Assembly: GCA_028748925.1 (NCBI GenBank)
Contig: JAQTPE010000001.1
Location: forward strand, 12,065 to 58,103
DNA from: Candidatus Omnitrophota bacterium
GTDB taxonomy: Bacteria; Omnitrophota; Gorgyraeia; 2-01-FULL-45-10
Direction of reading: 5' to 3'
DNA: 46,039 nucleotides
The notes beneath the pieces were generated by a model. That model was not told where the DNA came from. It did not search any database and was given only the letters and a program-made list of their open reading frames with translations. Numbering within the stretch: position 1 is the stretch's first letter; every line of letters starts with the position of its first letter. Both the position numbers and the translations under genes were made by a program. Shown one piece after another: positions 1 to 23,416 of this stretch.

Positions 1-127
1 TAACTCTTATACACGCCGCGGTAGAATACGCCGTAAAGAAGACCGCAGGCACAAAATGGGACACAGACCTCGCCGATAAATCCCACGCTCTCGCTCTGGA
101 AACGGAGACGAGATTAGGCCAGGCGTT
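1..127 (+). repeat. Exact 127-bp direct repeat, copy 1 (copy 2 at 2314-2440)
   Basis: Base-by-base identical to 2314-2440; diverges at 128 (g) versus 2441 (a). Confidence 0.97.
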
Positions 128-3100: not shown

Positions 3101-5438
3101 TATTGGGTATGGTTTTCTTATTATTCCGGAACCCGAAAAAGAACATCCGCAGTATTTTACGGATATTGCTCTTGAAGCACTTATAGCCGTGAAAAGATTG
3201 AGTAAGTCTGGAAATCTTAAAATAGGATTCAATTCGTGGGGCGGATCAGCTTCCATAAATCATTTACATCTTCAGGCAGGCTACTATAATGAAGACGCGC
3301 CTATTCAAAACGCGCAGAAGAAGACTGAATTTAATATAGATGGTCTAAGGGCAGGTATCTTAACTGGCTATCCTGCATCTGCTGTTTGGTTTGAGATAGA
3401 CAGCAACGGCGAGTTTGTAAAACCATTTCTTGCATATCTTAAATTGGTTCAGGGCGAAAATCTTACACATCCGATTTCAATATTGGGCGATTATATCTAT
3501 ATCTGGCCGCAGGGAAAGTGGACAGGAGAATCTGTGTTTAGGTCCGACCGCCTGGGAAGTAACGAATTTGACGGCCTAATGTATGTAATGAAGCAAGATG
3601 ATTTTAATAAAATAGATACAGAAGGCGTTGAACGTGAAATGAGGATACTTAATGTTAAGGAAGGTAAATTCGGAGAATTATTAGAGAGCTTTAGGGGTTC
3701 TCTACAGCCGAAAAATATCGATATAATGAAATTAGTAAGAGAAGCCTGTGATGCATGCGATAGAAGACATGATATGGATTGGGCCGATGTTGTAAATGCC
3801 AAGGACCAATATGAAAGAATTGTGCTCAGAGGCAATGCTACAGAAGACCATCTTGCGGCTCAGGTTAATTTGCCCGTGGTTTCTCGGGCTTTACAGGTTT
3901 TGATCAGCGGTGCGCTTGCGGCCAACTACAAAAAAGAGTCGCCTCATATTTATGTAAATGTGAACCGGAAAGATTCTCTTGCGGAGATCGAAATATCATA
4001 CAACGGATTTAAAGAGATAGATATGCCGAAAGAGATATCGGACGCTCTTAATAAATCCGGAGCAAGCCTTACGATAAGGCCTAAATACTATAATGATGTT
4101 ACCAGTATTACTTTACGTTTGCCGCTTGCAAATAAAAAAGCAATAGAGCCCCGGGTTGGGTTGGATGTCAACGTGGTCGCTACATCTATGTTGTTGGGAT
4201 TCGCGTATAAAGCGATTTTTGGCCAAAAGGCCAATGATATAGCCGGTCATATGTATGCAGGGCTCTTTAGCGGCATACCGACCTCGATATTAGTTGCGGG
4301 CGCAGTTATTCTCGGCATCGCGATCATCGCCGCGCTCGTGATACGGTTGACTTCTCTGCGCCGGGCAGCTCATCCGGTCAGAGCAGGCCCGGATTTTGTC
4401 GTTGGTATTCTACGCACTACCCCCAATGACAGAGAGGCCGACGTGCGGGCCGCTTTCGCAGGTATGGGAATGACAAATGTCATTGTAGATAGGGTTGTTT
4501 CGCCCAAGAACTTTATGCCTCCAGCGGGCAAAGTCGGCATATTTATAAGTGACGACGTAAATCTGAAATACATCACCCTAGAATCGATTAAGGCTATAGA
4601 GCTTACCGCGAATTACCGCATTATACTTGCCATGACGAATATCGATCCCGATACGCGTGACCGTATAGCTAAGCTGATCAAAGAGATGCTTGGCGAAGTA
4701 AAGAGCATAGACGCGGCCGATATATTTAAAGCGGCCCAAGACCGCATGAAGAGAGATCCCAATTTTGCCGGAAAGGTCGGAGAATTAAGTTCGCTGGTCC
4801 AAACAAGAAGGGATGAGATAAGAGATGTCTATAATGACATGCCGATACCGACCGAAGCCCAGATAAATGGCAGGACTTTTGCGGTGGCAACTACAGAAAA
4901 AGTGGCAATGTCCGATATCTGCTTCGGTGAAAATGCAAGCCTTGCGACCAAGAAAGGCATAAAGAATGCATTTATATACGGAGATGATCTGAAGACCGAT
5001 AAAGAAGCGCGCAACTTCGTGGTAGCATCAGGTTATACCGGTAATCTCGAGGAGATGATTTTCATCAATAAGAATGGACAGACATATGAGAGCATTGTCA
5101 ACTACATCACGGGTCTTCCCGGAATAGGTGCGAGTGCCAAAGATGTTGGCGTAAGGGCAATCGAGGGGGAATTAAATATCGTCGCAACAAGGGAAGTGCC
5201 CGGTAAGTTGCTACAGATACAGTCGATAGAGATGAACGGCAAGCCCGTATATGCAACGATAAACTCTTATCAGACATTGTTAAATATGCTAGTGGCAGAA
5301 GGAGAATTGCCTCCAGGAGTTAAGGAGAGTGATGTAAAAGGCGTATTCAGATACATGCCGCGAACGTTGCCGATAGATTACGAAAAGGAGATCAGGACTT
5401 ATATTGAAGCTATCGCTGTGATACGTACAGCGGCATAA
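3..5438 (+). CDS. Giant multidomain protein, 5'-truncated by the window edge: nucleotidyltransferase-like N part, GDP-hexose phosphorylase/HIT-like segment, degenerate HATPase-like segment, TM helix, C-terminal domain
   Basis: The tracked ORF starts at a TTG at 126, but the same frame is open back to nt 3 (TLIHAAVEYAVKKTAGTKWDTDLADKSHALALETETRLGQALKR...), so the true start is upstream. Motifs: NSWGGSASINHLHLQAGYY (HxHxQ, GDPGP/VTC2-like), FFGLDPSNV and KGGLAFTENGFDFLVE (UDPGP-like), TM ILVAGAVILGIAIIAALVIRL. Confidence 0.6.
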   Translation, partial: TLIHAAVEYAVKKTAGTKWDTDLADKSHALALETETRLGQALKRILIPYEDLLLKFSDRGKDTAILEELLADPSRDLELEDRINHMNAAVRILPKLKTLTPAKPVIFEDGREALDIHTQKAVDSLINGENAVILFAAGEANRCTNSLVAAGIITEEEAQGPDYKLWNQNLWDIATRYNDRRDKDLTEERIKELGLKTPRQYAIPSYTRNLTLGVRHIKAYLGGIEDEIIRLGGGDRDVQKAKKNLKFVITVNNDIIRDVEKDMIDNHFFGLDPSNVILVLNDLANGFVIKDGKYVLSQDPKHRTNYNHGFNLINGNIPGFSYKYDQSQRKFVPMIEVSGFDYIKGKGAKTAIVHRVNDLILLVGKHAVDIDMLALWQKLRAEKGANCMFEVMNNPNKQKGGLAFTENGFDFLVEGTSIKSTIVEAAMGKLNDKIAKDPGSQLLRGVPYNRLYMYFDIAEIQEALNENDGLMPMSIKHKNGAISPEIPTGDITSMPGVKALSIIRKNDPLIDEEIISPNKDYPTRGVGTGATVHDFKELANLEEALEILAKVDNATVEWYLHNGVSEYGYREREELSEKIGVPVQDMLARFNMSEEVVRFYRDKADPEVKKLIMMLLYSAEKERIDTFVYKAASWVIRELKLPRPNISDTGDMSEAAHMEINHEIALARSEGRGYLLKGDIAGWQKAQDHDMSRVNNIIEHLNAIPVQSRMVNLPQALGEVNLYDILRTANVVLINPSSTAPPQKDHAGVTYESIYIIAPSLDHFTDNELALTLIHAAVEYAVKKTAGTKWDTDLADKSHALALETETRLGQALSNLIPVADSGLLPVPEREYILEQKILGVIEKTRGLSADLPGGLGRVDIHEALRSAGITWAKAKVSAQATDLEILQVILEKIVETEAKKIDPACQIDDFIYGRMSWWLGQLIAEGRLDFDNTVQELWDQRMRRGGVFSYTFDAVMNKKAGEFGVSYVAGRTEYDKASGRKQSLEAGSVIPPPVDPNKNFNKFLETEGPQRRLLDLAINGMHIAIDVNKNPIIGYGFLIIPEPEKEHPQYFTDIALEALIAVKRLSKSGNLKIGFNSWGGSASINHLHLQAGYYNEDAPIQNAQKKTEFNIDGLRAGILTGYPASAVWFEIDSNGEFVKPFLAYLKLVQGENLTHPISILGDYIYIWPQGKWTGESVFRSDRLGSNEFDGLMYVMKQDDFNKIDTEGVEREMRILNVKEGKFGELLESFRGSLQPKNIDIMKLVREACDACDRRHDMDWADVVNAKDQYERIVLRGNATEDHLAAQVNLPVVSRALQVLISGALAANYKKESPHIYVNVNRKDSLAEIEISYNGFKEIDMPKEISDALNKSGASLTIRPKYYNDVTSITLRLPLANKKAIEPRVGLDVNVVATSMLLGFAYKAIFGQKANDIAGHMYAGLFSGIPTSILVAGAVILGIAIIAALVIRLTSLRRAAHPVRAGPDFVVGILRTTPNDREADVRAAFAGMGMTNVIVDRVVSPKNFMPPAGKVGIFISDDVNLKYITLESIKAIELTANYRIILAMTNIDPDTRDRIAKLIKEMLGEVKSIDAADIFKAAQDRMKRDPNFAGKVGELSSLVQTRRDEIRDVYNDMPIPTEAQINGRTFAVATTEKVAMSDICFGENASLATKKGIKNAFIYGDDLKTDKEARNFVVASGYTGNLEEMIFINKNGQTYESIVNYITGLPGIGASAKDVGVRAIEGELNIVATREVPGKLLQIQSIEMNGKPVYATINSYQTLLNMLVAEGELPPGVKESDVKGVFRYMPRTLPIDYEKEIRTYIEAIAVIRTAA
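2314..2440 (+). repeat. Exact 127-bp direct repeat, copy 2
   Basis: See 1-127; same reading frame, offset 2313 nt. Confidence 0.97.
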
Positions 5439-5441
5439 CGA

Positions 5442-5538
5442 AATTATGTAGCATGGGGATTACCCCCTCGTCTGCCTTCGCTTTTCTCAAAGGGGCCGCC
5501 AAGCACTCTTTGGGGAGGCGGAGGCAGGCTACATAATT
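5442..5538. repeat. Intergenic inverted-repeat element
   Basis: Outer arms AATTATGTAGC (5442-5452) and GCTACATAATT (5528-5538) are perfect reverse complements; inner complementary GTCTGCCT / AGGCAGGC. Confidence 0.7.
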
Positions 5539-5563
5539 AGTTGCTCGTGAATCTTTCAGATAG

Positions 5564-5589
5564 GTAGGGCAGATTAAAACCTGCCCTAC
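5564..5589 (+). terminator. Hairpin, possible terminator or REP-like element
   Basis: GTAGGGCAG-attaaaac-CTGCCCTAC, perfect 9-bp stem; no clear T-tract follows. Confidence 0.4.
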
Positions 5590-5642
5590 GGTTGTCTCAG
5601 GGTAAGTGAAAATTTTTAAAAAGACCTTAACCAGGAGGTGAT

Positions 5643-6209
5643 GTGACAAAGATAATAAAGCATATCATAACGGTTACGAAGCTCGCCAGGATCATCGACA
5701 CGAGCGATGCCTGCCGGCGCCGCCACTCCTATAAGGTAGAGCGCTATTCACTACTCATCTGCAGAAGACTGAAACTCCCGGAACAGGAGATTAAGGTAAT
5801 CAAGATAGCGAGCATGCTTCATGATATAGGCAAGATCGGCATAGATCTTACAATAATCAAGAAACCGGCAAAGTTAACCATTGAAGAATGGGAGCAGGTA
5901 AAGAGGCATCCTGAAATCGGCGCGAATATAGTCAGTCAACTGGGTTTCTTTGGAGAGGTTTCGGATGTTATAAGGCACCATCATTCCCGTTTTACCGGAG
6001 GCGGATATCCGGACGCGTCATTATCCGGGAATAGGATCCCGATCGGATCACGCATAATAGCTGTTACCGACGCTTTCGACGCTATGATCAGTGACAGGCC
6101 ATATCGTAAAGCAATGTCTAAGGAGGCGGCGGTAAAGGAACTTGCGAGATGTTCAGGTACTCAATTTGATCCCTGTATAGTGGATGCATTTTTATCGGTA
6201 AATAAATAA
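5643..6209 (+). CDS. HD-GYP domain protein (putative cyclic-di-GMP phosphodiesterase-like)
   Basis: GTG start with SD aggaggtg; MLHDIGKIGI, HPEIGANI, HHHSRFTGGGYP, VTDAFDAM motifs. Confidence 0.85.
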   Translation: MTKIIKHIITVTKLARIIDTSDACRRRHSYKVERYSLLICRRLKLPEQEIKVIKIASMLHDIGKIGIDLTIIKKPAKLTIEEWEQVKRHPEIGANIVSQLGFFGEVSDVIRHHHSRFTGGGYPDASLSGNRIPIGSRIIAVTDAFDAMISDRPYRKAMSKEAAVKELARCSGTQFDPCIVDAFLSVNK

Positions 6210-6254
6210 TGATAGAGATACTTGTTAAAAAATAAAAAACTTAGTTTATTTTAG

Positions 6255-6282
6255 TTGACATGCAATTCACAAATGATATAAT
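6255..6282 (+). promoter_or_regulatory. Consensus sigma70-type promoter for the giant CDS
   Basis: TTGACA (6255-6260), 16-nt spacer, TATAAT (6277-6282). Confidence 0.75.
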
Positions 6283-6354
6283 ATACCATACAAGATAGTA
6301 AAAAGTTAGTTATTTACAGAGCCCATTAATTAAGAAACAAAGGAGAGACCTTAA

Positions 6355-9300
6355 GTGATCTTAACAAATCTGCCGTTGTATAGACACATTAAGAGAGCAG
6401 TATCGCTTCTTGTCGTAGTCTCATTTGTATTCTCCAATGTCGCATTTGCCGATATTTCAAAAACTACCAGCCTTGATGCCAAAAAACCTGTAGAAATTAC
6501 CACTGATCCGGATAAGATCGTCATCCCCCGTGATTACGGTCTCATAAAGTCCAAATATACAGCCAGAGATTCCAAGAGACTTGTCATTCACATCCAGGAC
6601 GCGCACTGCAATTATGAAGCTCAATCCAATATAATAAAGATATTGGAGTGCCTTGTTAAGAATGACGGCTTGAGCCTGGTGTCGGTGGAAGGCGCCGATG
6701 GTTTCATCGATACCTCATGGTTTAAGGCTTTCCCGGACGCCGATATAAGGAAAGAGGTTGCCGATTATTTTATGAAAAAGGGCGAGATCACCGGCCCGGA
6801 ATTCCTGTCCATAACGAGCGATCTGCCGATAAAATTATTCGGCGCCGAGACGCGTTCCTATTATATAGATAACCTCAATGCTTTTACCTCCAGCTATCCG
6901 CTCAAAGAAGACACCGAAAGATATTTTAACCGGATAAAAGCGGTCCTTAATAAACTAAAGATCACTATATACAGCGAAGAGCTGAAGGAATTTGACCAAA
7001 AGACGCAGGATTATGAGTCCAAGAAGATATCCTTCACGGATTATATAAAATATCTGGAGATCCTGGCAGCCCGGTATAAGGTGAGTCTGCGCCGGTACGA
7101 AAACCTCTTCAAACTCGTAAGCGTCCTTATTTATGAAAAGAAGATAGATTTTAACGTAGTGGATAAAGAGCGCGCCGCGCTGATCGATGCCATTACAAAA
7201 AAGCTCGATAAGGATCAACTGGCGGAGCTTGTTAACAAGTCGCTTGAATTCAAGGTCGGCAAGATCTCATCGGTTGAGTATTACAATTATCTTAGAGCGC
7301 TCGCCGCGAAATACGGGATCACGCTATCTTCGGAATATCCGAATCTCTTTAATTACATCATATACAATTCCGTATATTCAAGGATAGAGAACGAACATCT
7401 GTTTAACGATATCAAGAAGTTTGAAGAGGCCCTGAAAGAGAGGATGTTTGCCGATGATGACCAACGTACGCTCGACAAATTATCGCGCCACATAAACATA
7501 TTACTTGGCCTTACCAATATAAAGTTATTGAACGGAGACTTTGATTATTACAAAGAGCGCAAGGAAGAGTTCTCCCATGAGGTATTCGCCGGTTTCATAA
7601 ATAGGATGGCGGCGAAATTCGGTTTTGCTTATGAGATAGATCCTCCGTCCGAAGCGGTTGTCGAGAGCATGCCTAAACTGGAAGATTTCTATGCTATAGC
7701 GATAAAGCGCGATAAGGCGCTCGTTGACAATACGATGCAGGCTATGAAGAAGGAGAATGCGCAAATCTCCGTTTTAGTAACGGGCGGTTTTCATTCGGAA
7801 GGCATAACGAAGCTTTTAGAGAAACAGGGCGTATCGTACTTAGTCATCTGCCCGAATATAACAAAAGATGTCGAGACGCCTTATATAAAGATACTCACCA
7901 ATCAGCGCACCCCCCTGGAGGAGATACTCTCCGATACGGGTGCCGCAACAGCCGATGCTAAGAATGTAAAGGGCAGCATGCTCGCGCCTTACCTTATTAC
8001 TGCGGCCAGGACAGCTAAGATAGAAGAGATAGCGGATAGAACAAGAGAAGATCTTGAGCTGTGGGCCAGGATGAATATATCCCCATGGATTCCGGTAGCA
8101 TTGTCCGATCTTGTAAAGATGGGGATCCAGCCAAAGGCGGCGATCCTTGTAGTCCGTTTTAACAGCGATGTGGACGCGGCCCTCAAAAGATACGCCAAGG
8201 AAAATGAATTGGAAGGGAAGGATCTCGAGGCTTTTAAGAAGAGCGCCAAAGAGGTTAAGAAAATAGCCAAAGGCATAATAGCCGAATTAATGGAGAGACA
8301 GTCCGCTTATACCGTTTCGGGTGCAAAGAAAATAGAATGGCCGGATCCGAAAGATGTGACTCCCGATAAACGTATAGTCATGCTTATTAGTGGAGGTGAA
8401 GCGCCGGGCGTTAATGAGTACTTCTGGCGCGACGCCGAGATGCACGCGGAACTGGGCTATTCTGTAGAGGTGATGCATTTCGGATTGAAAGGGCTATTAA
8501 AAGGAAAGCTGGAAGTTGGTAATAACGGGCGGACCTGGGTGAATTGGGAAAGAGCTCGGGGTATAAATGGAATGCCCGGGGCTTTTGCCGGCACTTCAAG
8601 AGTCAAGATGAGCAAGAGCGAGATATTCAAGATGTTATGGGATGCCGCGGATTACACTAAGACATTAGAGTTTATAGGTGGCAACGACCATTTAGGGGAG
8701 GCGGCCAAAGTAGGAGAGATAATTAATCAGATAACGGGAGCAGATGATTACGCAGATTTTAAAGGGGAAAAAGAGGAATTCGTTAAAGCACTGAAAGATA
8801 TATTGAACAAAGCTGACATTTCACAATCTGAAATCGAGAGCGTCTTTAATGAATTGCATAAAAAGCTCAAGGATATGCTCGTCATCGCTTTGCCCAAGAC
8901 TATAGATGGCGATACCAAAGTCTATCCGATGGGCGCGAGTACCGCTCATGACAGGAACGAGGAGCTCATCAGGCGTGCCGCGCATAATCCGTTCACTAAA
9001 GAAGAGATCGCGGCGGGCAAGAGGGCGTGTTCGGTTGTACAGGTAATGGGCAGGGATAACGGTTATCTTGCCGTGGTCGATGGCAATCCAACTTACCTAT
9101 TATTACTGCCCGAATGGAGCCGGGGCGTTAAATGGGATACGGTACGCGAAGCCGTGAAGAGCAGATTGGATAAATACGGCGTCTGCACCGTGGTGACGTC
9201 CGAAGGTTTTGGCATAGAGTACAATGAAAAAGGCAAGGTCTCCGGTTGGCCGATTATAGATGAGATATTGGAGAGGTATCATAATCCTGTGCTTCAGGCA

Positions 9301-12300
9301 AAATATGATAACTTAGGCCGTGATGACCAGGGCAACCCGCTTGTTACCGAGCTTGCTTTCGCGGATTTTGTAGCTACAGCTTTAGGCGCGGATAAAGAGA
9401 TGGGCCTTAAAAAACGCGGTCATGATAAGAATCTTTTCCTTGAGAATCCCGCATATAGTTTCAGGGATACGGAGCCAAACGATATCGATAAGGCGGTAGC
9501 TGAATTTGCTATTCCTATTGCCATAGATATAAGTACAAATCCAGCCTTGAGGCGGGAGTGGATAAGTAGAGGTGGAGTGTGTATAGCCGCGGACGCAGGC
9601 GCTATGACAATGGAAAAGATTAGGGATACGATGAAAGCGCGTTCGCTTACGGAAGTGACGGGCAAGATCAGTCTGAAAGATGACGTGATCTTTACGGAAG
9701 ACGAACTGAACGAGATGAATATCATAGGTCATTCTGATTCGGCGGTGAATAGTCTGCCGGATATCAAAGATATTAAGGTTAAAGAGAGGCCCGCAGGCGT
9801 CAGTTTTAAGACGGCTGAATGGGCCACCGACTCTCAGGCTGAATCATTGCTGGATATGGCGCGGCCGGACTCTCGCATGATAAATATATGCGTAATATCG
9901 CGCAAAGACGAAAGCGAAGGCAATGCCCTTATAGGGGCGCTCAGGGATAGAAAGCCTGCCATGTTTAGTCCCGCGGAATATGTAAGGAATAGAACGAAAT
10001 CCGTGGCATCCTATGTTACATCCGCAGAAGACATGACGCTCTATGAGTTGGCTAAAAGGATCGCCGGTTCTGTAGATAAAAAAAATATGGCGCATCTAAT
10101 TATCTCGGATAAATTTAAGGTACACAAAGATGACGCGTTAATAAAACGATTGATGAAGAATCCTATATGTGCCACACTTCTTAGTAATGCTCAGGTAACC
10201 GAAGACGGAAAGAGTTATATCTTCGGCGCCCGGCTTGCGGACCTTCTCGACTATGCCTTTAAAGAAGCGCTGGGCAAAAAGATAAAGAAGATACGATCCA
10301 ACATCCTCGGTGAGTCGCTCAACATGCTTCCGGGTGAGGAAGCAGGTCCGACCGCTCTCGGCGCGATACGCGCAAACGGCGGCGCATCCGAGCAGGGCGC
10401 AATTACTGTAGATGGCGCAGAGCTTACTGACTCGCAAAAAATCGAAATTAATGGTAAAATAAGATCTGATTTCGAGAGCGGCAAGGCCAGGCTTGTAGAG
10501 ACCATAAATGGTGTTGAAATATATGAGATCCCGGGCCTGGAAGATCTTACATATCTGGTGGCCCATCCCGGCCGCGGCGGAGACGCATGTGATCATAAAG
10601 CGCGCCGTATATATCTTTCACCCAGTAAAGTAAGAGTATATAACAGCCTTTCACCGATAAATAAGGAGAAGTTCTTGAAGCACGAAATAGCTCACCTGGA
10701 TAACCCAAGATTGGCCGAAGATATTATTGAAGTTCTTGCGCCGTCACATGATGTTCGCCTGGAGATTTTGACAAAGGATATGTCGGGCTCGCAGAAAAAA
10801 GCTATCGATGAAGTCTACAGCGATGTATACAAAAAAGCGGTAAATGGCGGAAAAGAATACGCGCCGGAAAATGTAGCAAGCGAATACGGAATATCCGTGG
10901 ATATAGCGCGAGCATTACTGGATAAGATAGCCGAGGAGTCCGGGTACAACGCGATAAAGAGGGATATGTATCAATCCGTTATATCCAATACTCCGGCCGC
11001 CATAAAAGAGAGCTCTCTTTTAGACGTGTCAGAAAAGGGCAGGATGACTATCGAGTTTACGAGAGAGAATCTCGAAGACTTTGATCCGGTTAAAAATCCC
11101 AAAGGTATGAATCTGAAAAGTTGGCTTAAGAAATACAAGAAAGAAGCTTCCGTATCTACAGCCGGAATAAGAGGTCTGCAGAATATCTTGTTTCCTAATG
11201 ATCCGCGGGAACTCATGGGGGAAAAAGCGATTATCCTAGCTAACGTAGCCAAGGCGCTCGTCGCCCGTTCTTCATACTCCGGTGAAGAGATACATAAATT
11301 TGCTTCTTCGGAAGTAAGGTTTAATTCAAGAGAATATGTAGAGTGTATAGCCCGTATACAGGCGGCATTAGGAATAAAGACGTGTGTACCGTTGGACGGA
11401 GCGACTACGCCTATATGGATGGCGTCATTCCTGATATTCAAATATGATCTGATGGGCGGCGAATATGTAACATCGAGCCACGCTATCAGCAAAAAGATCG
11501 CGACAAAAGACCTTAATTCAGAGGGTAGCCAGTTTACACCGGATGAATCCATACTGTTCGTGAAAAAGATCGAAGAGATAATAGCCCAGATCGAAGATAA
11601 AGGCGTATATTCCGTAATATTGGCCGCGATGAATGACGAGAATATAGATCAGGTCTTTATGAGAAAGGTCAATAATGGCATCGAAGATTATGTTAAATAC
11701 CTTAAGACCGGTATAGCTACGCGTAACAATATTCAACTAATCAAAGAAGGTGAAAATAAGATCTTCATAGACGTTGTCGGTGGTTGTATGTACAGGACTA
11801 TGAGTAAGGTATTCAACAAACTTGGTATAACTGAAAAATTTAGATGGCTGCACATAAAAGAAGATCCGTATTTTCATGGAATAGGCAAATCATGCTACAG
11901 GCTGAATACGGAAAATGGCAAATTGGGCTTCGAGGATCTTTCCTGCGATACCAGCATAGTCGCCATCAACGAAAAAGAGGATGTTGAAAGGATCATGGGC
12001 TTTGTAGAGAAATTCAAAGATAGTATATCCAAAAAAGCGGTGGGAACACAAATTTTGATACCGGTGCCTGGATCAAACAGCAAGATCTTCGGGCAGATAA
12101 GGGCTTCTAATGATCCGGATTTGAGGCTTTTGAAGAATGTCGTATCTGTAGATCTGGGCGAAGGGAAGCTTTTTGTGTGCGAAACAGGGATAAGGATATT
12201 GCCCGTTATCAAGACGATGGGCTATAAGCAGAGCCTTAAAGACGCGCCTGTGGGTACGGTTATAGAGCTGACCGATCCTGACGGAGATCGTCTTATAACG

Positions 12301-15300
12301 GCTCAGATAGTGAATATAGAAAAAAGAGAGATGCTCGAGAAGCTGGGATTGGCGTATGAAATACTCGATTCCAGAAGAGTGCTGGTGGTATTTATGCCTA
12401 ACCAGTCTTTCCTGATGACGATCGATTTCAGGAAAGAGATGCTCAAGAGGGACGGGGAGTGGGCAAAGCGTAATTGGTTCATGATAAAGACTACCGCTTC
12501 AGCCGCCGCATGGGATGATTGGGCCGCTGCTCAGAGCGATAAATCGTACAAAATAAAATACACGGGAACGAATGATTGGGTTGACGCAAAGGGAGTTCCC
12601 GTGATAAACACTCCGGTCGGGTTTAAAGAGATAGCGAGCATTATGAAGAAAGCTGAGAAACAGATGCGCGAAGCGCCGGATCGGGATGTCATAATAGAGG
12701 ACGTATTCGGAAATCAGATTAATCTGGGTGTTCAGCCCAGGCTTTTATTTGCCGGTGAGGAATCTGGCGGCGAGATATTCGGGCCTACGGAGTTGATCGA
12801 GAGCGTGAATGGCAGAAGAGCGCTCGCCATGAGAGAAAAGAGCGCGGGTGAAGCTATGGTTATAACGAGCGCTATGGCCGCCGACCTCGAAGCAAAAGGT
12901 ATGACGTTGGTAGATTATTTAGTGAATATTAATAGTGAGAATAAGATCGTCAATCGTTTTGACTATAGGGAAGACATTATTTATTTCAATGAGAGCGAGC
13001 CGGATATCAATGTCAGGAAGGCGGCGGAGGCAGAAGGCCTGAAGATGAAAGAGGAGAACGATTTCTTCTTCCTGGCGATCGCCATCGCGTTGAGAGACGG
13101 TAAAATTACATTCGATCAGGCATCTGTCTTTTTAAGGAAGTTGTTCCCCGCGGTAGATTTCGAAGAACTTAAAGGCGTATATTTTGTCGGAGATGGTGTA
13201 TATCTGAAGTTTACCGATAGGGTAGTTGAGATAAGGCCATCCGGGACAGAAGCTAAGACTAAGGGTTATGCCATGGGGGCGAGCCCCACTATGTTGGTAA
13301 ATGACGCTAAGGCGCTTGCCGGATATTATTCAAATGAGATGAGAGACCGGTTAGTGGATCTCTTGGGCGCGGAAACGCATGCGGCATATTTTAAAGAATC
13401 GGAATTCATGGGCACGAAAATGCCGGCTGTAAAAGTGAGAGCTATGGAAATTTATAGCGCATACCTTGCAAATGGTGCGGAGACTAAACAATTTGTGCCG
13501 CCCACGGATTATAAGTATTTGAATGTGCCAATTTGGGCAAAATCAGAGAAAGAGAATGCCTCTTTTATAAGCCAGAAGCTTCATACGCCGCTCGTTGCCG
13601 CTACGCCCGAAATGGCGGCGCGATTTATGCAAGGCGGATATAACCAGGTTGGTTATGGTCTTCCCGCAGGTGCGGCGATAGACGGATCGTTCGCTATAGG
13701 CCAGGAAGGCAACCAGGGGTATTATGTAGATGGCGGCAAAAAGATATTCCTGGATACCGTCCAGAGCATGAAAGATTTCTTTGCCAGGAGAGAAGCAAGA
13801 CTTGGTAAACAGATCAAATATGTCATAAAGCCGGGAATAGGCGGGCAGCATACTCCGTTCCAGGGTATCGCGGACGCGTTCCAGCTTATCGATGTTGCGA
13901 CAGGAAAGGTCGTAGGAGAGTATGAGCTCGGTAAGGATTACGAGGCGGCCCTATCGGCTAACTTAAAAGAGCTCGGCTCCCGATGGGATCAGATCGCGGT
14001 TATTCCGAGTTCAAAATCCGGCTCTACCGATGAGACGATGATGATATTTACAGAGATATTCTATGTTCTCTTGAAGAATGTAGCCGCGGAAAAGGGAGTT
14101 AACGGCGAACTCTTCGCGCAATCGGTGCTCGACACTATGCATGATGTGAATTTTGCGAACGGCATAGAGCGTCCGGCAAAAGACTTATTTAAAGGATTCA
14201 GCGCCGCTTTGGTGGCGAACAAATTTGACGGCAGGCTGGGAGTCGGAGGAGTGAAGCAGATATTGGATATAGTGCTGGGGAATATGTTCTTCGAGACCAC
14301 AGATAGGCCCCAACAGAGCCGCCTTTCGGCTTTTATAAGGAATTCGGAATTAACAAAGGAGCTTGATAAAGAAGATATCCCGGGATTCGGCGCCATGTTC
14401 GACAATGTCGGTGGGCGCTGGACGGCGGATCTTCATATGATGACATTTCTTGCGTATCATAAATTAGACGCCGAAGGATATTGGAATACTCGTTATGAGG
14501 GCATAAAAAAGGTACGTGAAGGAACTCATAAGGCAAATGAATTAGCCGATATAATATCGAATGAAAGTATTACGGACATAGCCCTTGTCGTTCCGGATGA
14601 GTTGTTCTGGTTCGGAAAAGCTATGGAACAGAATTTTAACGAGAGTATCTGGCAGAACGGTTTCGCGAACCTCGTAGCTATTAAGGAGAGCGCATGGGAA
14701 GTTCAAAAATCTCATTATGCCGGGGAGGCTTCAAGGCTCGTTATAAATATCTCAAGCCTTGATATTCCAGCAGCCTCATTTAATACCGCGCCTCTTGGTG
14801 AATTCAAGCTAGATGGCGTAGGAAAGCAGAAACTTGCAGACTCGCTGGGCGAATTATTTACGACATTCTACGGCATGACCCATAATGTGGGTAACAGGCT
14901 TATAGCAAGAGCGCTTGCCGAGAAAGGTTTTGCTCCGGAAGATGTAGATATAAATGATCTCGATAATCCTGTTACCAGGATATTCCAGCAGAACCTGTAT
15001 GTGCGCCAGCCTTATGTAGAGCTTGGCAAGGGATTACTGGAGCATAAACTTAAGACCCTGCAGGCGAAGGGGCAGCATGCTATAGATGAGGAATTGAACA
15101 GAATAAAGGCCGCGGCGCGCGACAGGGAGATAGAGTCGAATACCCCGGAACTGAATCTTCCGGGTAAGATCGCCGATGTGGAACAGCTAACCGCCGCTAT
15201 AATACAGGCCGCGGAGTTTGCCAAAGAGAGCGGACGGAAGTTCGTGCCGTTCATTTATCTCGAAGGCGAAAAGTTCCTCGAGATTAGGGAGCTATTGATA

Positions 15301-16443
15301 AGCTTAGGCGTTGAATGGGTCATGCAGGGTACCGGTGACCAGCATATAAGTTATCAGCAGCCCCTCGCTCAACCGCAGAAATACCTGCCTTTCATAATCT
15401 CTTTTGTCCCGGAGAATACGCTTTCAGGTCGTCCGGCGGTAGGATTTGCGAAAGGCTATCTGAATAATGTAAGCCCCAACATGGTGCGCGATCTTTTTGC
15501 CGAAGCTTCCTATAAAGCATTGACCGCTTATAGAAAGAATGAGGCCGGCGAGCATGTTAAGGGCGCGGCAGGGATATTCTTGCGCCTTACCGACTCAGAT
15601 GATGATCGTAATATGCTTATAGAATCTTTTAAGGCAGCTATCAAAGCTCTTAAACCTGTGGAAGATAGCGCAGAAGAGCTGTCTCCTGTATCATCTGAGA
15701 CATCTTCGATCGGAGATGAGATGGTGAGGATGATTGAAGAGAGAGAGCCGGAGCTTGCGCAAAATCCAAACTATCAGAAGTATGTAAGACCGTACATCGC
15801 CAATTTTATGGAGACGTTGGCTTCAACAGGATTTGATAACAAGACTAAAGAGGATGTCACTACGGTTTTAGCCCACGATACCGCGATAAGTCTTGAGCAG
15901 CAGGAGGCTGTGCAATTGATGCACAAACTTCTCGCGAAATATCTTGGCAAGTCGGTTATCACTGTAAGAGGAACGGGCGCCGCGCTCGTCGGGGCAATCG
16001 ATGATAATATAAGATCACTACGCGCGTCCGGCAAAAAATTTGCCGTAATAGCGATGACAGGGAAAGATACATTTGACAAATACGGCCAGGGGGCAGATGG
16101 GCTTCTTGCAAAAATAAATGATGTGAATGGCTATATGAAGACTACGTTTAAGGAGGACGCAGAAAAGCTTCCGATCAGCGCGGTATTGAATGTACAGGAT
16201 CGCATGCCGCTCATGCCGTTGTATGATGTAGCGTTGCGTTTGGCATATAATTTGGGCAGTGAGAAGATCCTCGAAGGCTTAAGAGCTGTAGCGAGAGACG
16301 AGAATAATCAACCCTTCACGAAAGATAACCTGCTCGAATTCTTGAAAAGAGGTTATATCTGCTTGAAGCCTATCGTGCCGATCGATTTCAACGCGGCTAT
16401 CGAGGCTTCCAAAGCAGAATCCGCCGCTCTGAGATCATTGTAA
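6355..16443 (+). CDS. 3362-aa secreted multidomain protein: ChaN/TraB(Tiki)-like, phosphofructokinase-like, HExxH segment, phosphoglucomutase/phosphomannomutase, phosphoglucose isomerase-like
   Basis: GTG start after SD aaggaga; signal peptide ...SLLVVVSFVFSNVAFA; SGGEAPGVN / PKTIDGD / MGRDNGYLA (PFK); TSSHAIS / TDPDGDRL / GEESGG / RPSGTEAKTKGY (PGM/PMM); SSKSGSTDET / GGRWTADLH / GDQHISYQQ (PGI). Confidence 0.8.
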   Translation: MILTNLPLYRHIKRAVSLLVVVSFVFSNVAFADISKTTSLDAKKPVEITTDPDKIVIPRDYGLIKSKYTARDSKRLVIHIQDAHCNYEAQSNIIKILECLVKNDGLSLVSVEGADGFIDTSWFKAFPDADIRKEVADYFMKKGEITGPEFLSITSDLPIKLFGAETRSYYIDNLNAFTSSYPLKEDTERYFNRIKAVLNKLKITIYSEELKEFDQKTQDYESKKISFTDYIKYLEILAARYKVSLRRYENLFKLVSVLIYEKKIDFNVVDKERAALIDAITKKLDKDQLAELVNKSLEFKVGKISSVEYYNYLRALAAKYGITLSSEYPNLFNYIIYNSVYSRIENEHLFNDIKKFEEALKERMFADDDQRTLDKLSRHINILLGLTNIKLLNGDFDYYKERKEEFSHEVFAGFINRMAAKFGFAYEIDPPSEAVVESMPKLEDFYAIAIKRDKALVDNTMQAMKKENAQISVLVTGGFHSEGITKLLEKQGVSYLVICPNITKDVETPYIKILTNQRTPLEEILSDTGAATADAKNVKGSMLAPYLITAARTAKIEEIADRTREDLELWARMNISPWIPVALSDLVKMGIQPKAAILVVRFNSDVDAALKRYAKENELEGKDLEAFKKSAKEVKKIAKGIIAELMERQSAYTVSGAKKIEWPDPKDVTPDKRIVMLISGGEAPGVNEYFWRDAEMHAELGYSVEVMHFGLKGLLKGKLEVGNNGRTWVNWERARGINGMPGAFAGTSRVKMSKSEIFKMLWDAADYTKTLEFIGGNDHLGEAAKVGEIINQITGADDYADFKGEKEEFVKALKDILNKADISQSEIESVFNELHKKLKDMLVIALPKTIDGDTKVYPMGASTAHDRNEELIRRAAHNPFTKEEIAAGKRACSVVQVMGRDNGYLAVVDGNPTYLLLLPEWSRGVKWDTVREAVKSRLDKYGVCTVVTSEGFGIEYNEKGKVSGWPIIDEILERYHNPVLQAKYDNLGRDDQGNPLVTELAFADFVATALGADKEMGLKKRGHDKNLFLENPAYSFRDTEPNDIDKAVAEFAIPIAIDISTNPALRREWISRGGVCIAADAGAMTMEKIRDTMKARSLTEVTGKISLKDDVIFTEDELNEMNIIGHSDSAVNSLPDIKDIKVKERPAGVSFKTAEWATDSQAESLLDMARPDSRMINICVISRKDESEGNALIGALRDRKPAMFSPAEYVRNRTKSVASYVTSAEDMTLYELAKRIAGSVDKKNMAHLIISDKFKVHKDDALIKRLMKNPICATLLSNAQVTEDGKSYIFGARLADLLDYAFKEALGKKIKKIRSNILGESLNMLPGEEAGPTALGAIRANGGASEQGAITVDGAELTDSQKIEINGKIRSDFESGKARLVETINGVEIYEIPGLEDLTYLVAHPGRGGDACDHKARRIYLSPSKVRVYNSLSPINKEKFLKHEIAHLDNPRLAEDIIEVLAPSHDVRLEILTKDMSGSQKKAIDEVYSDVYKKAVNGGKEYAPENVASEYGISVDIARALLDKIAEESGYNAIKRDMYQSVISNTPAAIKESSLLDVSEKGRMTIEFTRENLEDFDPVKNPKGMNLKSWLKKYKKEASVSTAGIRGLQNILFPNDPRELMGEKAIILANVAKALVARSSYSGEEIHKFASSEVRFNSREYVECIARIQAALGIKTCVPLDGATTPIWMASFLIFKYDLMGGEYVTSSHAISKKIATKDLNSEGSQFTPDESILFVKKIEEIIAQIEDKGVYSVILAAMNDENIDQVFMRKVNNGIEDYVKYLKTGIATRNNIQLIKEGENKIFIDVVGGCMYRTMSKVFNKLGITEKFRWLHIKEDPYFHGIGKSCYRLNTENGKLGFEDLSCDTSIVAINEKEDVERIMGFVEKFKDSISKKAVGTQILIPVPGSNSKIFGQIRASNDPDLRLLKNVVSVDLGEGKLFVCETGIRILPVIKTMGYKQSLKDAPVGTVIELTDPDGDRLITAQIVNIEKREMLEKLGLAYEILDSRRVLVVFMPNQSFLMTIDFRKEMLKRDGEWAKRNWFMIKTTASAAAWDDWAAAQSDKSYKIKYTGTNDWVDAKGVPVINTPVGFKEIASIMKKAEKQMREAPDRDVIIEDVFGNQINLGVQPRLLFAGEESGGEIFGPTELIESVNGRRALAMREKSAGEAMVITSAMAADLEAKGMTLVDYLVNINSENKIVNRFDYREDIIYFNESEPDINVRKAAEAEGLKMKEENDFFFLAIAIALRDGKITFDQASVFLRKLFPAVDFEELKGVYFVGDGVYLKFTDRVVEIRPSGTEAKTKGYAMGASPTMLVNDAKALAGYYSNEMRDRLVDLLGAETHAAYFKESEFMGTKMPAVKVRAMEIYSAYLANGAETKQFVPPTDYKYLNVPIWAKSEKENASFISQKLHTPLVAATPEMAARFMQGGYNQVGYGLPAGAAIDGSFAIGQEGNQGYYVDGGKKIFLDTVQSMKDFFARREARLGKQIKYVIKPGIGGQHTPFQGIADAFQLIDVATGKVVGEYELGKDYEAALSANLKELGSRWDQIAVIPSSKSGSTDETMMIFTEIFYVLLKNVAAEKGVNGELFAQSVLDTMHDVNFANGIERPAKDLFKGFSAALVANKFDGRLGVGGVKQILDIVLGNMFFETTDRPQQSRLSAFIRNSELTKELDKEDIPGFGAMFDNVGGRWTADLHMMTFLAYHKLDAEGYWNTRYEGIKKVREGTHKANELADIISNESITDIALVVPDELFWFGKAMEQNFNESIWQNGFANLVAIKESAWEVQKSHYAGEASRLVINISSLDIPAASFNTAPLGEFKLDGVGKQKLADSLGELFTTFYGMTHNVGNRLIARALAEKGFAPEDVDINDLDNPVTRIFQQNLYVRQPYVELGKGLLEHKLKTLQAKGQHAIDEELNRIKAAARDREIESNTPELNLPGKIADVEQLTAAIIQAAEFAKESGRKFVPFIYLEGEKFLEIRELLISLGVEWVMQGTGDQHISYQQPLAQPQKYLPFIISFVPENTLSGRPAVGFAKGYLNNVSPNMVRDLFAEASYKALTAYRKNEAGEHVKGAAGIFLRLTDSDDDRNMLIESFKAAIKALKPVEDSAEELSPVSSETSSIGDEMVRMIEEREPELAQNPNYQKYVRPYIANFMETLASTGFDNKTKEDVTTVLAHDTAISLEQQEAVQLMHKLLAKYLGKSVITVRGTGAALVGAIDDNIRSLRASGKKFAVIAMTGKDTFDKYGQGADGLLAKINDVNGYMKTTFKEDAEKLPISAVLNVQDRMPLMPLYDVALRLAYNLGSEKILEGLRAVARDENNQPFTKDNLLEFLKRGYICLKPIVPIDFNAAIEASKAESAALRSL

Positions 16444-16843: not shown

Positions 16844-17533
16844 ATGCCGAGAGCACAAAGGGTCTGTTTTTCCGGAGCGTTGTATCATGTTTATCAAAGA
16901 GGTAACAATAAACAGGACATTTTTATTGACGACACGGATAGATGGCACATTCTGAAACTTTTTCTAGAGTCTAAAAAGAAATTTGATTATCTTTTGCATT
17001 GTTATGTATTGATGAGAAATCATTTTCACATAACGATCGAAACGTCGAACGCAACACCTGTTTCTAAAATCATGCATTACATAGACGCCGGTTATGCAGC
17101 GTATTTTAACGCCAGACATAATAAAAAGGGGCACTTGTTTCAAGGGAGATTCAAAGCGTCCTTGGTTGAGAAAGATTATTATCTTTTGGAATTATCCCGT
17201 TATATTCATCTGAATCCGGTCAGAGCGGGACTTGTCTCGATGCCCGAGGATTATAGTTGGAGTAGCTATCGAGTATATATTGGATGCAAAAAGGATGCTT
17301 TGGTTGACACCGAAACTGTGCTTGGATACTTTGATGCCTACGATAAAGAAAGAGCCCAGAGAGAATATAGAAAGTTCGTTGAAAGTGCTATTTCTTCGGT
17401 ATTTGAGAAGAAGGATTGGATCGAAGAGAATTTAAAAAGACAGCGTTTTATCGGATCGACAGACTTTGTGAGAAAATATCTAACTAAAGAAATTTCAAAA
17501 GAAGCGCCAGGCGCCTACCTAAAAAGCGCCTGA
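16844..17533 (+). CDS. REP-associated tyrosine transposase (Y1_Tnp / TnpA_REP family)
   Basis: YHVYQRGNNKQDIF, LMRNHFHITIET (HUH-like), LSRYIHLNPVRAGLV, YSWSSYRVY. Confidence 0.92.
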   Translation: MPRAQRVCFSGALYHVYQRGNNKQDIFIDDTDRWHILKLFLESKKKFDYLLHCYVLMRNHFHITIETSNATPVSKIMHYIDAGYAAYFNARHNKKGHLFQGRFKASLVEKDYYLLELSRYIHLNPVRAGLVSMPEDYSWSSYRVYIGCKKDALVDTETVLGYFDAYDKERAQREYRKFVESAISSVFEKKDWIEENLKRQRFIGSTDFVRKYLTKEISKEAPGAYLKSA

Positions 17534-17604: not shown

Positions 17605-18222
17605 ATGCATATGACACATGAAATGCACAGGCGGACTCATTATCTGGTAAAGAAGAATTTTCAACTCAAGTACACTCTTGCGATAGTGATAATGATATTA
17701 TCGGTAATGCTCGTAAGCGGCGCAGGGATATATGTCGGCATGTGGTCTTCCATAATAGAGAATTTTTCGAAGTTCAAGGTTTCCGAGAACCTCGAGACGG
17801 CCGAACGTATAGCGGGTTATGAGGAAGCGAGATATGGCAAAGGCGACTTCAGATTAGAGAAGATCTTCAGAGAAGCGGAATTGCTGAGCGCCCAGGAACG
17901 GGATACCCTACATAACGCTTTAAATTCAGTCAATAGGGCGCTTCTTCCCAAGATAATAATACTCGTAGCGATAATATTTATCGGCGGCATATTCGTCTCA
18001 CACAGGATAGCCGGGCCGATGTACCATTTTGAAAAATCGGCGCGGGCGATACGCGACGGGGATCTGAACGTAAACTTCAATATAAGAAAGACGGATGAGA
18101 TGAGGGATGTCGCCGTAGACCTGGAGAAGATGGTTGAGTCGCTGCATGACGACATCGCAAAGATAAAAAAAATAAATCACGATCCGGAGATTGCCGGAAT
18201 ATTGTCTAAATATAAGACATAA
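17605..18222 (+). CDS. Two-TM membrane protein with a HAMP domain and no output domain
   Basis: TM1 LAIVIMILSVMLVSGAGIYVG, TM2 IIILVAIIFIGGIFVSHRIAGP, HAMP-like FEKSARAIRDGDLNVNFNIRKTDEMRDVA. The ATG at 17611 is better spaced from the SD aaaggagg than the ATG at 17605. Confidence 0.75.
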   Translation: MHMTHEMHRRTHYLVKKNFQLKYTLAIVIMILSVMLVSGAGIYVGMWSSIIENFSKFKVSENLETAERIAGYEEARYGKGDFRLEKIFREAELLSAQERDTLHNALNSVNRALLPKIIILVAIIFIGGIFVSHRIAGPMYHFEKSARAIRDGDLNVNFNIRKTDEMRDVAVDLEKMVESLHDDIAKIKKINHDPEIAGILSKYKT

Positions 18223-19496
18223 TGTCAAATAGAATAGTTGCGTTAATTCTTGCCGCGGTCTTCTCAGCAGGCATTTTATCCGCTCAAACCAATGATAGCG
18301 TTCTTTCCACTTCCGGCGTGGAAACAGGTTCTTCGGATGAGAAGTTCCTCGATAAGATCGAATACGATTCCATCCTCTATTTTGTGCGCGAAATGAACCC
18401 CGCAAACGGCCTTATCAAGGATAGTTCGCGGCCCGGATCTCCCGCGAGCGTGGCGGCGGCCGGATTCGGGCTTACGGCGATATGCGTCGGTGAATCCCGC
18501 GGCTGGATCGCCAGGGACGACGCATACTATCTGGTGCTGAAGATCCTGAAGACATTCCGTGACAACGTCCCTAACGAAAGAGGCTTCTTCTATCATTTTC
18601 TTGATATGAGAACCGGTAACAGGGCATGGAATTCCGAGGTCTCATCGATAGATACCGCCCTCTTTCTTGCCGGAGCGCTCTTTGCCGGCGAATACTATAA
18701 AGGCAGTGAGGCCGAAGCGATAGCAAAAGAATTATATGAGCGTGTGGAATGGCCGTGGATGCTTAACGGCAAAAAGATCCTTTGTATGGGTTGGAAGCCC
18801 GAAGAGGGTTTCCTGCGGTACTATTGGGATTCTTATTCCGAGGCGATGATATTGTATGCGCTCGCCATAGGATCTCCGACATATCCGATCCCCGCGGAAT
18901 GCTGGTTCGAATGGAAACGGCCTGTCGATTCTTACAAGGATTACAAGGTCATCTATTGCACCACGGGAAGCATATTTACGTATCAATATTCGCATGCGTG
19001 GATAGATTTTCGTGAACTCTATGAAGGCGATACGAATTATTTCAATAATTCCATCAGCGCCGTTAAGGCTAACAGGCAGTTCTGTATCGATAATTCCGGT
19101 CTCTACAAAACATACGGTGAAAATTCATGGGGATTGAGCGCCTGTCTGGGGCCGGAAGGATACAGGGGCTATGGCGCCAAACCCGGAGAGGCTTTTAACG
19201 ATGGTACTGTACCGCCCTGCGGTATCGCGGGATCGTTTCCGTTCGATCCTATAGCGTCCCTGAACGGCTTGAAAAGATTATACACCGACCATAAAGATTT
19301 TCTATACGGCAAATATGGCTTTAAGGATGCTTTTAATCTCGATAAGAACTGGTGGGCGGAGGAGTATCTCGGTATAGATGTCGGTATCACCGTCTTAATG
19401 GTAGAGAACTACAGATCGGGCCTTGTGTGGGATAAATTTATGTCTATTGCTCCAATAGAGAACTGGACCCTTGCATGTTTTGCAAAGAGGGAATAA
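18222..19496 (+). CDS. Secreted glucoamylase-like (PF10091/GH144-like) glycoside hydrolase
   Basis: Signal peptide; GFGLTAICVGESRGWI, RGFFYHFLDMRTG, SSIDTALFLAGALFAGEYY, YWDSYSEAMILYALAIGSPTYPI; starts in TAATG overlap with the previous CDS. Confidence 0.8.
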   Translation: MSNRIVALILAAVFSAGILSAQTNDSVLSTSGVETGSSDEKFLDKIEYDSILYFVREMNPANGLIKDSSRPGSPASVAAAGFGLTAICVGESRGWIARDDAYYLVLKILKTFRDNVPNERGFFYHFLDMRTGNRAWNSEVSSIDTALFLAGALFAGEYYKGSEAEAIAKELYERVEWPWMLNGKKILCMGWKPEEGFLRYYWDSYSEAMILYALAIGSPTYPIPAECWFEWKRPVDSYKDYKVIYCTTGSIFTYQYSHAWIDFRELYEGDTNYFNNSISAVKANRQFCIDNSGLYKTYGENSWGLSACLGPEGYRGYGAKPGEAFNDGTVPPCGIAGSFPFDPIASLNGLKRLYTDHKDFLYGKYGFKDAFNLDKNWWAEEYLGIDVGITVLMVENYRSGLVWDKFMSIAPIENWTLACFAKRE

Positions 19497-19605
19497 TGGC
19501 AGTCGGTGTTTAAATGTTAGCTGTAATATGTTGTTGGATAGCGTAAGTCATTGCTGTTTGGATAGTTACGTAAATAGTGAACATAAATAAAAGTTAGAAC
19601 AGATA

Positions 19606-19636
19606 TTGACAAAAGACCAAATTATGGTAATATAAT
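19606..19636 (+). promoter_or_regulatory. Promoter with -10 directly abutting the start codon (probably leaderless)
   Basis: TTGACA (19606-19611) and TAATATAAT (19628-19636) upstream of ATG at 19642. Confidence 0.55.
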
Positions 19637-19641
19637 ATAGT

Positions 19642-21360: not shown

Positions 21361-21369
21361 GGGTATTCT

Positions 21370-22701
21370 ATGCGATCGATCGGATCTTCGGTCTTTGTAT
21401 TGGTTATATGTTCTTTGATAGCTATGAATTCAGGATGTTCAAGTTCCTCGTCGTCTAAAGCTTCCGCTTCCGGCGGCAAAGGCGCCGTCGAGGTTAGAGT
21501 CGCTTTCTGGGGCTCGCCCGATGAAGTCAATATAGTTAACGACATCATCGGCGCCTGGCAAAAATCGCATCCCGAGATAATAGTGAAACTGGACCATACG
21601 CCATATCGCGGTTATGTCGATAAGCTGCTTACCAGGATCGCCGGGCGTTCGGCTCCCGATATAATATGCACGGAGGTAGACCTCTTCGTAACGTTCCAGT
21701 CAAAGGATGTGCTGCTTGATCTGACGCCTTTTATGAAAGCCAACCCGGAATTCAGCACAAAGCAGTTCTATCCTGAAATAATTAACAGATTCACGGTTGA
21801 CGGCAAACTATACGCGATCCCTAGAGACACAGCGCCTTTTGCCTGTGTCTATTACAACAAAAAGCTCTTTGATGAAGCGGGCGTTCCTTATCCGAAGGAT
21901 GATTGGAACCTGGACGACTTATTGGATAAAGCACGGAAGTTGACGAAGACGGACAAGGACGGGCGGGTCACTCAATACGGATTCTACGCTTGGGCGTGGC
22001 CGAATTTTGTATACGCCTTTGGCGGAAGCATGGTTGACGATGTTAAGAACCCGTCCAAGTGTACGCTAAATTCCGGGAAATCGATCGCGGGGCTGCAATT
22101 CTATTCGGATTTGATAAATAAGTATAAGGTGCATCCGACTTCGACCGCTATGACGAATCTCGCTATGGGCGTTCAGGGAATGTTCATGACAGGAAGGCTC
22201 GCGATGTTCTCATCCGGCATATGGGAGACGCCGGGTTTGAGGAAGATGGCGTCACTCGATTGGGATGTAGCGATGTTTCCCAAAGGCCCCGGCGGCATAA
22301 GGGCTTTCGGTACGGGCGGTTCAGGTTACTGCATATTGAAAGAGACGAAGAATCCCGAGGCCGCTTTTGAGGTGATAAAAGCGCTTGCCGGCAGATCCGG
22401 TCAGACGATGTTAGCCGATACGGGCCTCGCGCAACCGGCCATAAAAGATATAGCACAGAGCGGGCATTGGGCGTTTGACAATAAGAAGCCCAAGAATAAA
22501 TCTATGCTTGACGAGGCGATGAAGTATGTCATATATGAACCTTTTCATCCCGCATGGAGAGAGGCCAAGGAGTTATATATAAATCCCGAACTTGATATGG
22601 TCTTCAGCGGGAAGAGGAGCGTGGAGGATGCGGTAGAGAATTTTACCGTTAAAGTGGATCGTTTGTTGAAAAACTTGGGGAAAAATGGAAAGGGGGAGTA
22701 G
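21370..22701 (+). CDS. Sugar ABC transporter substrate-binding lipoprotein (family 1, MalE/UgpB-like)
   Basis: Lipobox-like IAMNSGC; VAFWGSPDEVNIVNDIIGAWQKSHPEIIVKLDHTPY..., AFGTGGSGYCILKETKNPEAAFEVIKAL. Confidence 0.88.
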   Translation: MRSIGSSVFVLVICSLIAMNSGCSSSSSSKASASGGKGAVEVRVAFWGSPDEVNIVNDIIGAWQKSHPEIIVKLDHTPYRGYVDKLLTRIAGRSAPDIICTEVDLFVTFQSKDVLLDLTPFMKANPEFSTKQFYPEIINRFTVDGKLYAIPRDTAPFACVYYNKKLFDEAGVPYPKDDWNLDDLLDKARKLTKTDKDGRVTQYGFYAWAWPNFVYAFGGSMVDDVKNPSKCTLNSGKSIAGLQFYSDLINKYKVHPTSTAMTNLAMGVQGMFMTGRLAMFSSGIWETPGLRKMASLDWDVAMFPKGPGGIRAFGTGGSGYCILKETKNPEAAFEVIKALAGRSGQTMLADTGLAQPAIKDIAQSGHWAFDNKKPKNKSMLDEAMKYVIYEPFHPAWREAKELYINPELDMVFSGKRSVEDAVENFTVKVDRLLKNLGKNGKGE

Positions 22702-22703
22702 TT

Positions 22704-23312: not shown

Positions 23313-23329
23313 GGGGTTGTTAAACTGAA

Positions 23330-23393: not shown

Positions 23394-23416
23394 TATCATC
23401 AAAACTAAAACAATTT

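Follow-up and report, generated by a model that had tools for sequence, protein, structure and literature searches.

A signal-bearing giant protein of an Omnitrophota bacterium with phosphofructokinase, phosphoglucomutase and phosphoglucose isomerase-like domains: a putative exported multi-enzyme

Bacterial glycolysis is by textbook account cytoplasmic, with its intermediates and cofactors kept inside the cell. Glycolytic enzymes that moonlight on bacterial surfaces (enolase, phosphoglucose isomerase (PGI) and others) are ordinary cytosolic proteins without signal peptides, and we know of no bacterial system comparable to an exported glycolysis. Among eukaryotes, stramenopiles have mitochondrial TPI-GAPDH fusions (PMC3527533, PMC6198282). 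Giant ORFs have already been described in the Omnitrophota, where adhesion, coats or predation were tentatively assigned to them (PMC10066038, PMC11573180, PMC12057145). In the giants of Seymour et al. 2023, adhesion-type domains and transmembrane helices occur and few domains are annotated; neither phosphoglucomutase nor glucose-6-phosphate isomerase turned up in a text search of that paper (PMC10066038). Our literature search, which extended neither to bioRxiv nor to most subscription papers, returned no report of glycolytic cargo in Omnitrophota giants.

The window analyzed here, a stretch of 46,039 nucleotides from an Omnitrophota MAG (G000; 158 contigs, 92%-complete), contains a giant ORF at positions 6355–16443 of the forward strand. 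It comprises 3,362 codons in a single unbroken reading frame, starts at a GTG preceded by an AGGAGA-type site, and runs for 10,089 bases without an N or a stop; the whole window is likewise free of N. The encoded domains follow in the order Sec-type signal, head, phosphofructokinase (PFK), HExxH segment, phosphoglucomutase (PGM), PGI-fold block and C-terminal domain, and the chain contains sixteen cysteines. Its phylum of origin, its signal, and the head and C-terminal domain that it shares with giants place the ORF among the Omnitrophota giants. The original prediction had described one uninterrupted ORF encoding a signal peptide and PFK, PGM and PGI domains; the reading frame and the three enzymes were recovered in our analysis, whereas the head, the HExxH segment and the C-terminal domain had been missed. 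A PDB sequence search with the whole giant protein as query found no match. We tentatively read the protein, at somewhat less than even confidence and from its sequence, as an exported soluble multi-enzyme whose PFK, PGM and PGI-like domains are catalytically competent and would constitute a second upper-glycolysis set outside the cytoplasm.

The PFK-like block, with a C-terminal extension, lies at 8182–10341 (+) (residues 610–1330). PF00365 matches residues 673–994 (nt 8371–9336) with E=4e-18 over model positions 1–256 of 277, in agreement with the PFK-like domain predicted at ~8365–9700, and a 9-sequence profile of the exported PFK matched PFK structures at 2e-35. A second structure model is good only for the head and its PFK residues are of low confidence, so the PFK assignment rests on sequence. 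Identity between the exported PFK and the standalone PFKs of relatives is only 22–25%. Alignment with those standalone cytosolic enzymes shows that the GG loop, the Arg of GTSR, the K, T, D and D of PKTIDxD, MGR, the Glu of EG and the Arg of QRGG (column R428, nearly invariant) are conserved in the exported PFK. An altered active site without QRGG, as originally proposed, is therefore not well supported. One change that had been noted is real: GGND replaces GGED/GGDG, so that GG[DE]x lacks its first, Mg-binding Asp/Glu. This is, however, a family-wide trait rather than damage particular to the giant, as Asn occupies the position in most exported PFKs of relatives and Asp in that of L028. The Asp after GGN and the Lys before TID are positions that mark PPi-dependent PFKs. 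Both occur in the giant’s PFK (Asp of GGND, Lys of PKTID), as they do in relatives’ standalone PFKs, and the enzyme thus need not require ATP.

A linking segment at 10330–11100 (+) contains HEIAH, an HExxH motif (10681–10695, residue 1443), and may be a zincin-like domain. It had no Pfam match, and a 131-aa piece of it is 55% identical in the relative L042. The PGM/PMM-like block follows at 11110–13284 (+) (residues 1586–2310), with the motifs SSH (phospho-Ser loop, from 11467), DPDGDR (metal loop, from 12271), GEESGG (sugar loop, from 12754) and RPSGTE (phosphate loop, from 13234), invariant or nearly so in 5 homologues. By hmmscan, PF02878 at residues 1654–1747 reached E=9e-4 and 19.4 bits (cut-off 22.5 bits), while the same stretch scored 25.4 bits in the genome search, just over the cut-off. 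TIGR03990 matched the block partially, a profile of the block matched phosphoglucomutase/PMM structures in the PDB, and in other giants that share the head, the PGM domains were clearly over the Pfam cut-off, with E as low as 5e-25. The motifs and the PDB profile matches uphold the PGM/PMM domain with four canonical motifs that had been placed at ~11120–13300.

The PGI-fold (SIS) block spans 13522–15684 (+) (residues 2390–3110, about 710 aa). It had no Pfam match and no PDB sequence match in a profile search at E<=1, and a profile–profile match to PGIs covered 105 columns only, at a probability of 84%. An AlphaFold model built from 35 aligned sequences had a mean pLDDT of 83; its best 33 PDB hits in Foldseek were all glucose-6-phosphate isomerases, with E from 4e-8 and a TM-score by target of up to 0.60. 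The PGI-like domain expected at ~13500–15650 is hence confirmed as a fold, by the model and Foldseek, and not by sequence libraries. The block bears the motifs GIGGQH, SKSGSTDET, VGGRW, FNES and GTGDQH. From comparison by eye, we take GIGGQH/SKSGSTDET to be the phosphate loop of PGI, and VGGR, FNES and GTGDQH to hold its Arg272, Glu357 and His388. Alignment of 26 sequences showed 50–67% identity and >100 invariant columns, among them the Glu of FNES, the His of GTGDQH and other key residues. We found no equivalent of the PGI Lys518 segment in the block. In two relatives a canonical-type PGI accompanies the PGI-like block (in an adjoining ORF in L054, upstream in L064), so that the substrate of the PGI-like block may be a related phosphosugar.

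Similar cargo was found in relatives. Their large signal-bearing ORFs carry PGM, PGI, PFK, FBPase, TIM, PGK, enolase, PGAM and PPDK, as well as UDP-glucose pyrophosphorylase, and in most cases normal copies of these enzymes are present elsewhere. Other domains in relatives’ large ORFs include PMI, starch-synthase-like, transaldolase, NagB and ROK, along with the non-glycolytic aminotransferase, glutamate dehydrogenase and a PRPP-synthetase-like domain. L047 has a PGM+PGI-like ORF followed by a NagB+PFK ORF, a PGI-like ORF adjoins a PFK ORF in L046, and G020 has a giant that joins PGM and PGI-like domains, its PFK being encoded by a separate signal-bearing ORF. FBPase occurs in export-tagged ORFs of L048 and L054, and canonical PGI in a large ORF of L064 (a sequence without the 5' end of that ORF). 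L021 and L042 share head, PGM and PGI-like domains in one ORF, which argues against the assembly join that the original prediction had named as a refuting condition. The L021 giant also ends in the C-terminal domain, and the truncated L042 contains the start of it.

What appears to be the clearest exported lower-glycolysis cluster seen is at L148 (402–15607), where three neighboring ORFs, all export-tagged and sharing a head and a tail, encode, respectively, an aldolase-like domain, TIM+enolase and PGK+PPDK. Their catalytic motifs are intact (GHSERR, YEPVWAIG, HRSGETED, GGMTSHAA and similar). At L153 (1637–9333), PGK, enolase and iPGM each have their own ORF, side by side and with an N-terminal signal or anchor. 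The PGK ORF also contains the motif SCNTTGL, which resembles one of archaeal-type GAPDH, an assignment made by motif only. The two Pfam domains of the L153 iPGM are in reversed order. In the L047 giant (1–7779), the C-terminal domain of enolase stands ahead of the N-terminal one, as it does in glutamate dehydrogenase, possibly reflecting circular permutation or rearrangement.

For each enzyme we counted the genomes with a copy in an ORF of at least about 900 aa and applied Fisher tests: such copies were found for PFK in 10/37 and PGM in 14/28 genomes (samples weighted to close relatives), for TIM in 11/109, PGK in 6/117 (one case, G107, on a contig with masked stretches) and enolase in 4/117, compared with 0/109 for each of the controls SHMT and adenylosuccinate synthetase, and the p-values are only indicative because the genomes are not independent. 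The two control families speak against any housekeeping enzyme being equally likely to occur in giants. SHMT (PF00464) itself had no match in the 92%-complete G000 and is present in most relatives. The exported glycolytic set is incomplete in any single genome, and in G000 only its upper part was seen. Matches to the ATP/ADP-translocase (TLC) were found in 10/137 genomes, weak and mostly absent where PGK is exported. We rejected TLC import of externally made ATP as a general link on the basis of these few weak matches and their little overlap with exported glycolytic enzymes.

The rival explanation that survives best is that the domains are exported yet non-catalytic, their folds repurposed within giant surface proteins for binding, adhesion or a coat. 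Adhesion or coat roles have been proposed for Omnitrophota giants (PMC10066038), and the domains are very divergent, with PGM barely detected by Pfam, Asn in place of the metal-site Asp in PFK, and the Lys518 segment of PGI not found. We nonetheless consider a non-catalytic role rather unlikely. Catalytic residues are kept in PGM and nearly all are kept in PFK, the exported TIM, PGK, enolase and PPDK of L148 have textbook catalytic motifs, enzymes of a single pathway occur in large ORFs more often than two control enzymes do, and a Pfam search of the giant ORF matched no adhesion domain. The occurrence of glycolytic enzymes in relatives’ exported proteins thus makes an enzymatic role more likely than a purely structural role.

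The modules flanking the enzymes are shared widely. The conserved head domain (6394–8103 (+), residues 14–583, ~570 aa) has a GxxH-like motif, HIQDAHCNYEAQ, together with EGADG and GGFHSEG, and is 57–82% identical in other giants whose middles differ. Head profile matches were found in 109/197 genomes of the class, with several copies per genome, and ORFs bearing the head reach 12,701 aa. Its model has pLDDT >90 over most of residues 50–510, and comparison with PDB folds gave no match below E 0.1. An EreA/ChaN/TIKI-type identity, prompted by the motifs, was rejected, with an erythromycin esterase ranking no higher than 18th (E=0.85). The C-terminal domain (15685–16440 (+), residues 3111–3362, about 220 aa) ends in ...AALRSL. 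In a profile search, this domain, ending ALxSL or ALxAA, was found at the exact C-terminus of ~35 other large ORFs that otherwise differ from one another, and it weakly matched the N-terminal part of PTS Enzyme I in the PDB (E=0.005). Head and C-terminal domain look like shared modules of giant exported Omnitrophota proteins, probably serving delivery, anchoring or processing, with the enzymes as cargo. Giants without the ALxSL tail have a second type of C-terminus, short ends such as ...SGV, ...SNL and ...GNI seen in large ORFs of L039, L046, L047, L048 and L054, which could be another sorting or processing tag.

A glucan-use locus at window positions 18222–33050 includes three PF10091 proteins, two CBM11 proteins, a TPR protein and a sugar ABC transporter with its binding protein, and a ROK protein is also among the giant’s neighbors. 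Directly 3' of the giant, at 16844–17533, lies an ORF resembling REP-associated tyrosine (Y1) transposases. The ORF at 3–5438, which precedes the giant, is the 3' end of another giant (L138) that extends upstream beyond the window (G000:C1:1-12064) across a 100-N scaffold gap. This gap is directly left of the window, and a 120-bp stretch is repeated on either side of it. L138 contains HEAT repeats, a PF10091 glycoamylase-type domain and membrane segments; its HLHLQ motif resembles that of hexose-1-phosphate transferases, and its C-terminus weakly resembles the ALxSL-type tail domain. The region at 36338–45058 encodes arginase and a pyruvoyl-dependent arginine decarboxylase, followed by genes for hydrogenase maturation (a separate HypF C-terminal-part ORF, HypD and a HypE-like gene), with Fe-S/NAD oxidoreductase genes also within it.

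The giant might instead be secreted beyond the cell, its enzymes acting in the cytoplasm or lysate of a host or prey. Omnitrophota have been inferred to be host-dependent or predatory, and giant-ORF peptides increase in attached cells of V. archaeovorus (PMC10066038). ATP, NAD and sugar phosphates would be available from the prey’s cytoplasm, and the position of the conserved C-terminal domain at the very end of many giants would fit a signal for secretion or sorting. The window’s glucan-active genes and sugar ABC transporter, however, are consistent with free-living glucan use, and we regard host- or prey-directed cargo as clearly unlikely.

The evidence for export begins with a Sec-type signal peptide at 6355–6450 (+) (residues 1–32, ...SFVFSNVAFA), composed of the n-region YRHIKR and the h-region AVSLLVVVSFVFS, then NVAFA. 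By a 19-residue hydropathy threshold, residues 14–35 are the sole hydrophobic segment of the giant protein. Because a basic n-region precedes this single stretch, the remainder is predicted to be outside, cleaved or anchored. The lone segment and a similar N-terminus in ~30 divergent head homologues sustain the signal peptide of the original prediction, and all head homologues with a complete 5' end have a signal-like N-terminus. In a home-made heuristic, with positives defined as signals starting within the first 25 codons, ~35/41 large glycolytic ORFs had a signal compared with 0/26 control ORFs, most of the latter being standalone glycolytic enzymes. Two further large-ORF positives and all three control positives were discounted as starting deeper; one of the two, the L153 enolase, nevertheless has a plausible signal further upstream in the same frame. 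Across relatives, the giants’ signals often share the pattern F-x-x-[ST]-N-x-x-[FY]-A, sometimes with LRVPL or LRPPL 10–20 residues after it, and this pattern is possibly a dedicated export signal.

A signal-like segment kept in ~30 divergent heads and the contrast between large and control ORFs make it improbable that the N-terminal segment is non-functional as a signal and the giant an unusual cytosolic multi-enzyme. Its basic n-region and single hydrophobic stretch, which predict the rest of the chain outside, argue the same way, as do the separate cytosolic enzymes of G000, which encodes two PFKs and one PGM as standalone proteins apart from the giant ORF. A cytoplasmic location would accord with the normal setting of such enzymes, which work there with ATP or PPi, with the sixteen cysteines, and with the standalone PGI-like proteins of some relatives, which start without a signal. 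It would also suit the result for canonical PGI (PF00342), which had no match in the 92%-complete G000 or in several near-complete relatives. A chimeric join of separate genes, or another assembly or annotation artefact, is highly improbable despite the 158 contigs of the MAG and the scaffold gap at the left of the window, given the 10,089 bases without N or stop, the relatives with head, PGM and PGI-like domains in one ORF (and the C-terminal domain in L021), and the fusion or adjacency of PFK to sugar-phosphate enzymes elsewhere.

For the exported multi-enzyme that we tentatively favor, Sec export would place the giant in the periplasm, at the surface, or in material being digested, with head and tail acting as delivery, anchoring or processing modules for their enzymatic cargo. 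PGM would convert G1P to G6P, the PGI-like domain G6P to F6P, and PFK F6P to FBP, or the steps would run in reverse. The neighboring glucan-active genes and sugar ABC transporter would fit as a substrate source, and glucan phosphorolysis might yield G1P (a phosphorylase was not among the genes identified). We infer export in vivo, activity, substrate direction, channelling and the roles of head and tail, and a channelled extracytoplasmic machine is possible.

A broader reading, conceivable but on balance doubtful, is that Omnitrophota run a second, exported glycolysis in which Sec-tagged giants would jointly cover the path from G1P to pyruvate outside the cytoplasm, possibly on pyrophosphate. 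Its enzymes would be PGM, PGI, PFK, aldolase, TIM, GAPDH, PGK, PGAM, enolase and PPDK. We know of no supply of ATP, NAD or pyrophosphate outside the cytoplasm. Export-tagged glycolytic copies would mean sugar-phosphate chemistry outside the cytoplasm and, if exported glycolysis is true, the periplasm, the surface or the prey would be a metabolic compartment. This would bear on how the uncultured, apparently host-dependent Omnitrophota feed. Glycolytic cargo also gives the largely unexplained giant ORFs of this phylum a testable biochemical function.

Compared with known systems, the protein is closest to the Omnitrophota giants of Seymour et al. (PMC10066038), which belong to the same phylum, have very long ORFs, are often predicted to be extracellular and have poorly assigned domains; here, by contrast, a coherent set of sugar-phosphate enzymes lies between a shared head and tail. 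A ~6,000-aa protein from Menyafoubacteria, a sister PVC lineage, likewise has a secretory signal and a catabolic interpretation, but it is discussed for its carbohydrate-degradation domains, in passages that do not mention glycolytic enzymes (PMC12057145). Stramenopile TPI-GAPDH fusions and kinetoplastid glycosomes resemble our case in having glycolytic enzymes, some of them fused, outside the cytosol by means of a targeting signal, which here is predicted. The eukaryotic cases are organelles that import enzymes, whereas here a bacterial Sec-type signal is combined with giant multi-domain chains and separate cytosolic copies. Moonlighting enzymes are also glycolytic enzymes outside the cytoplasm, unlike the dedicated, divergent, signal-bearing paralogues described here. 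With PPi- and ATP-dependent PFKs (PF00365), the giant’s PFK shares the fold, PKTIDxD, MGR, EG, the Arg positions and the PPi-type Asp/Lys pair, and it differs in its long C-terminal extension and in having GGND for GGDD/GGDG. In its anatomy the giant is thus a variant of known Omnitrophota giants, while exported glycolysis, if true, would be new in kind.
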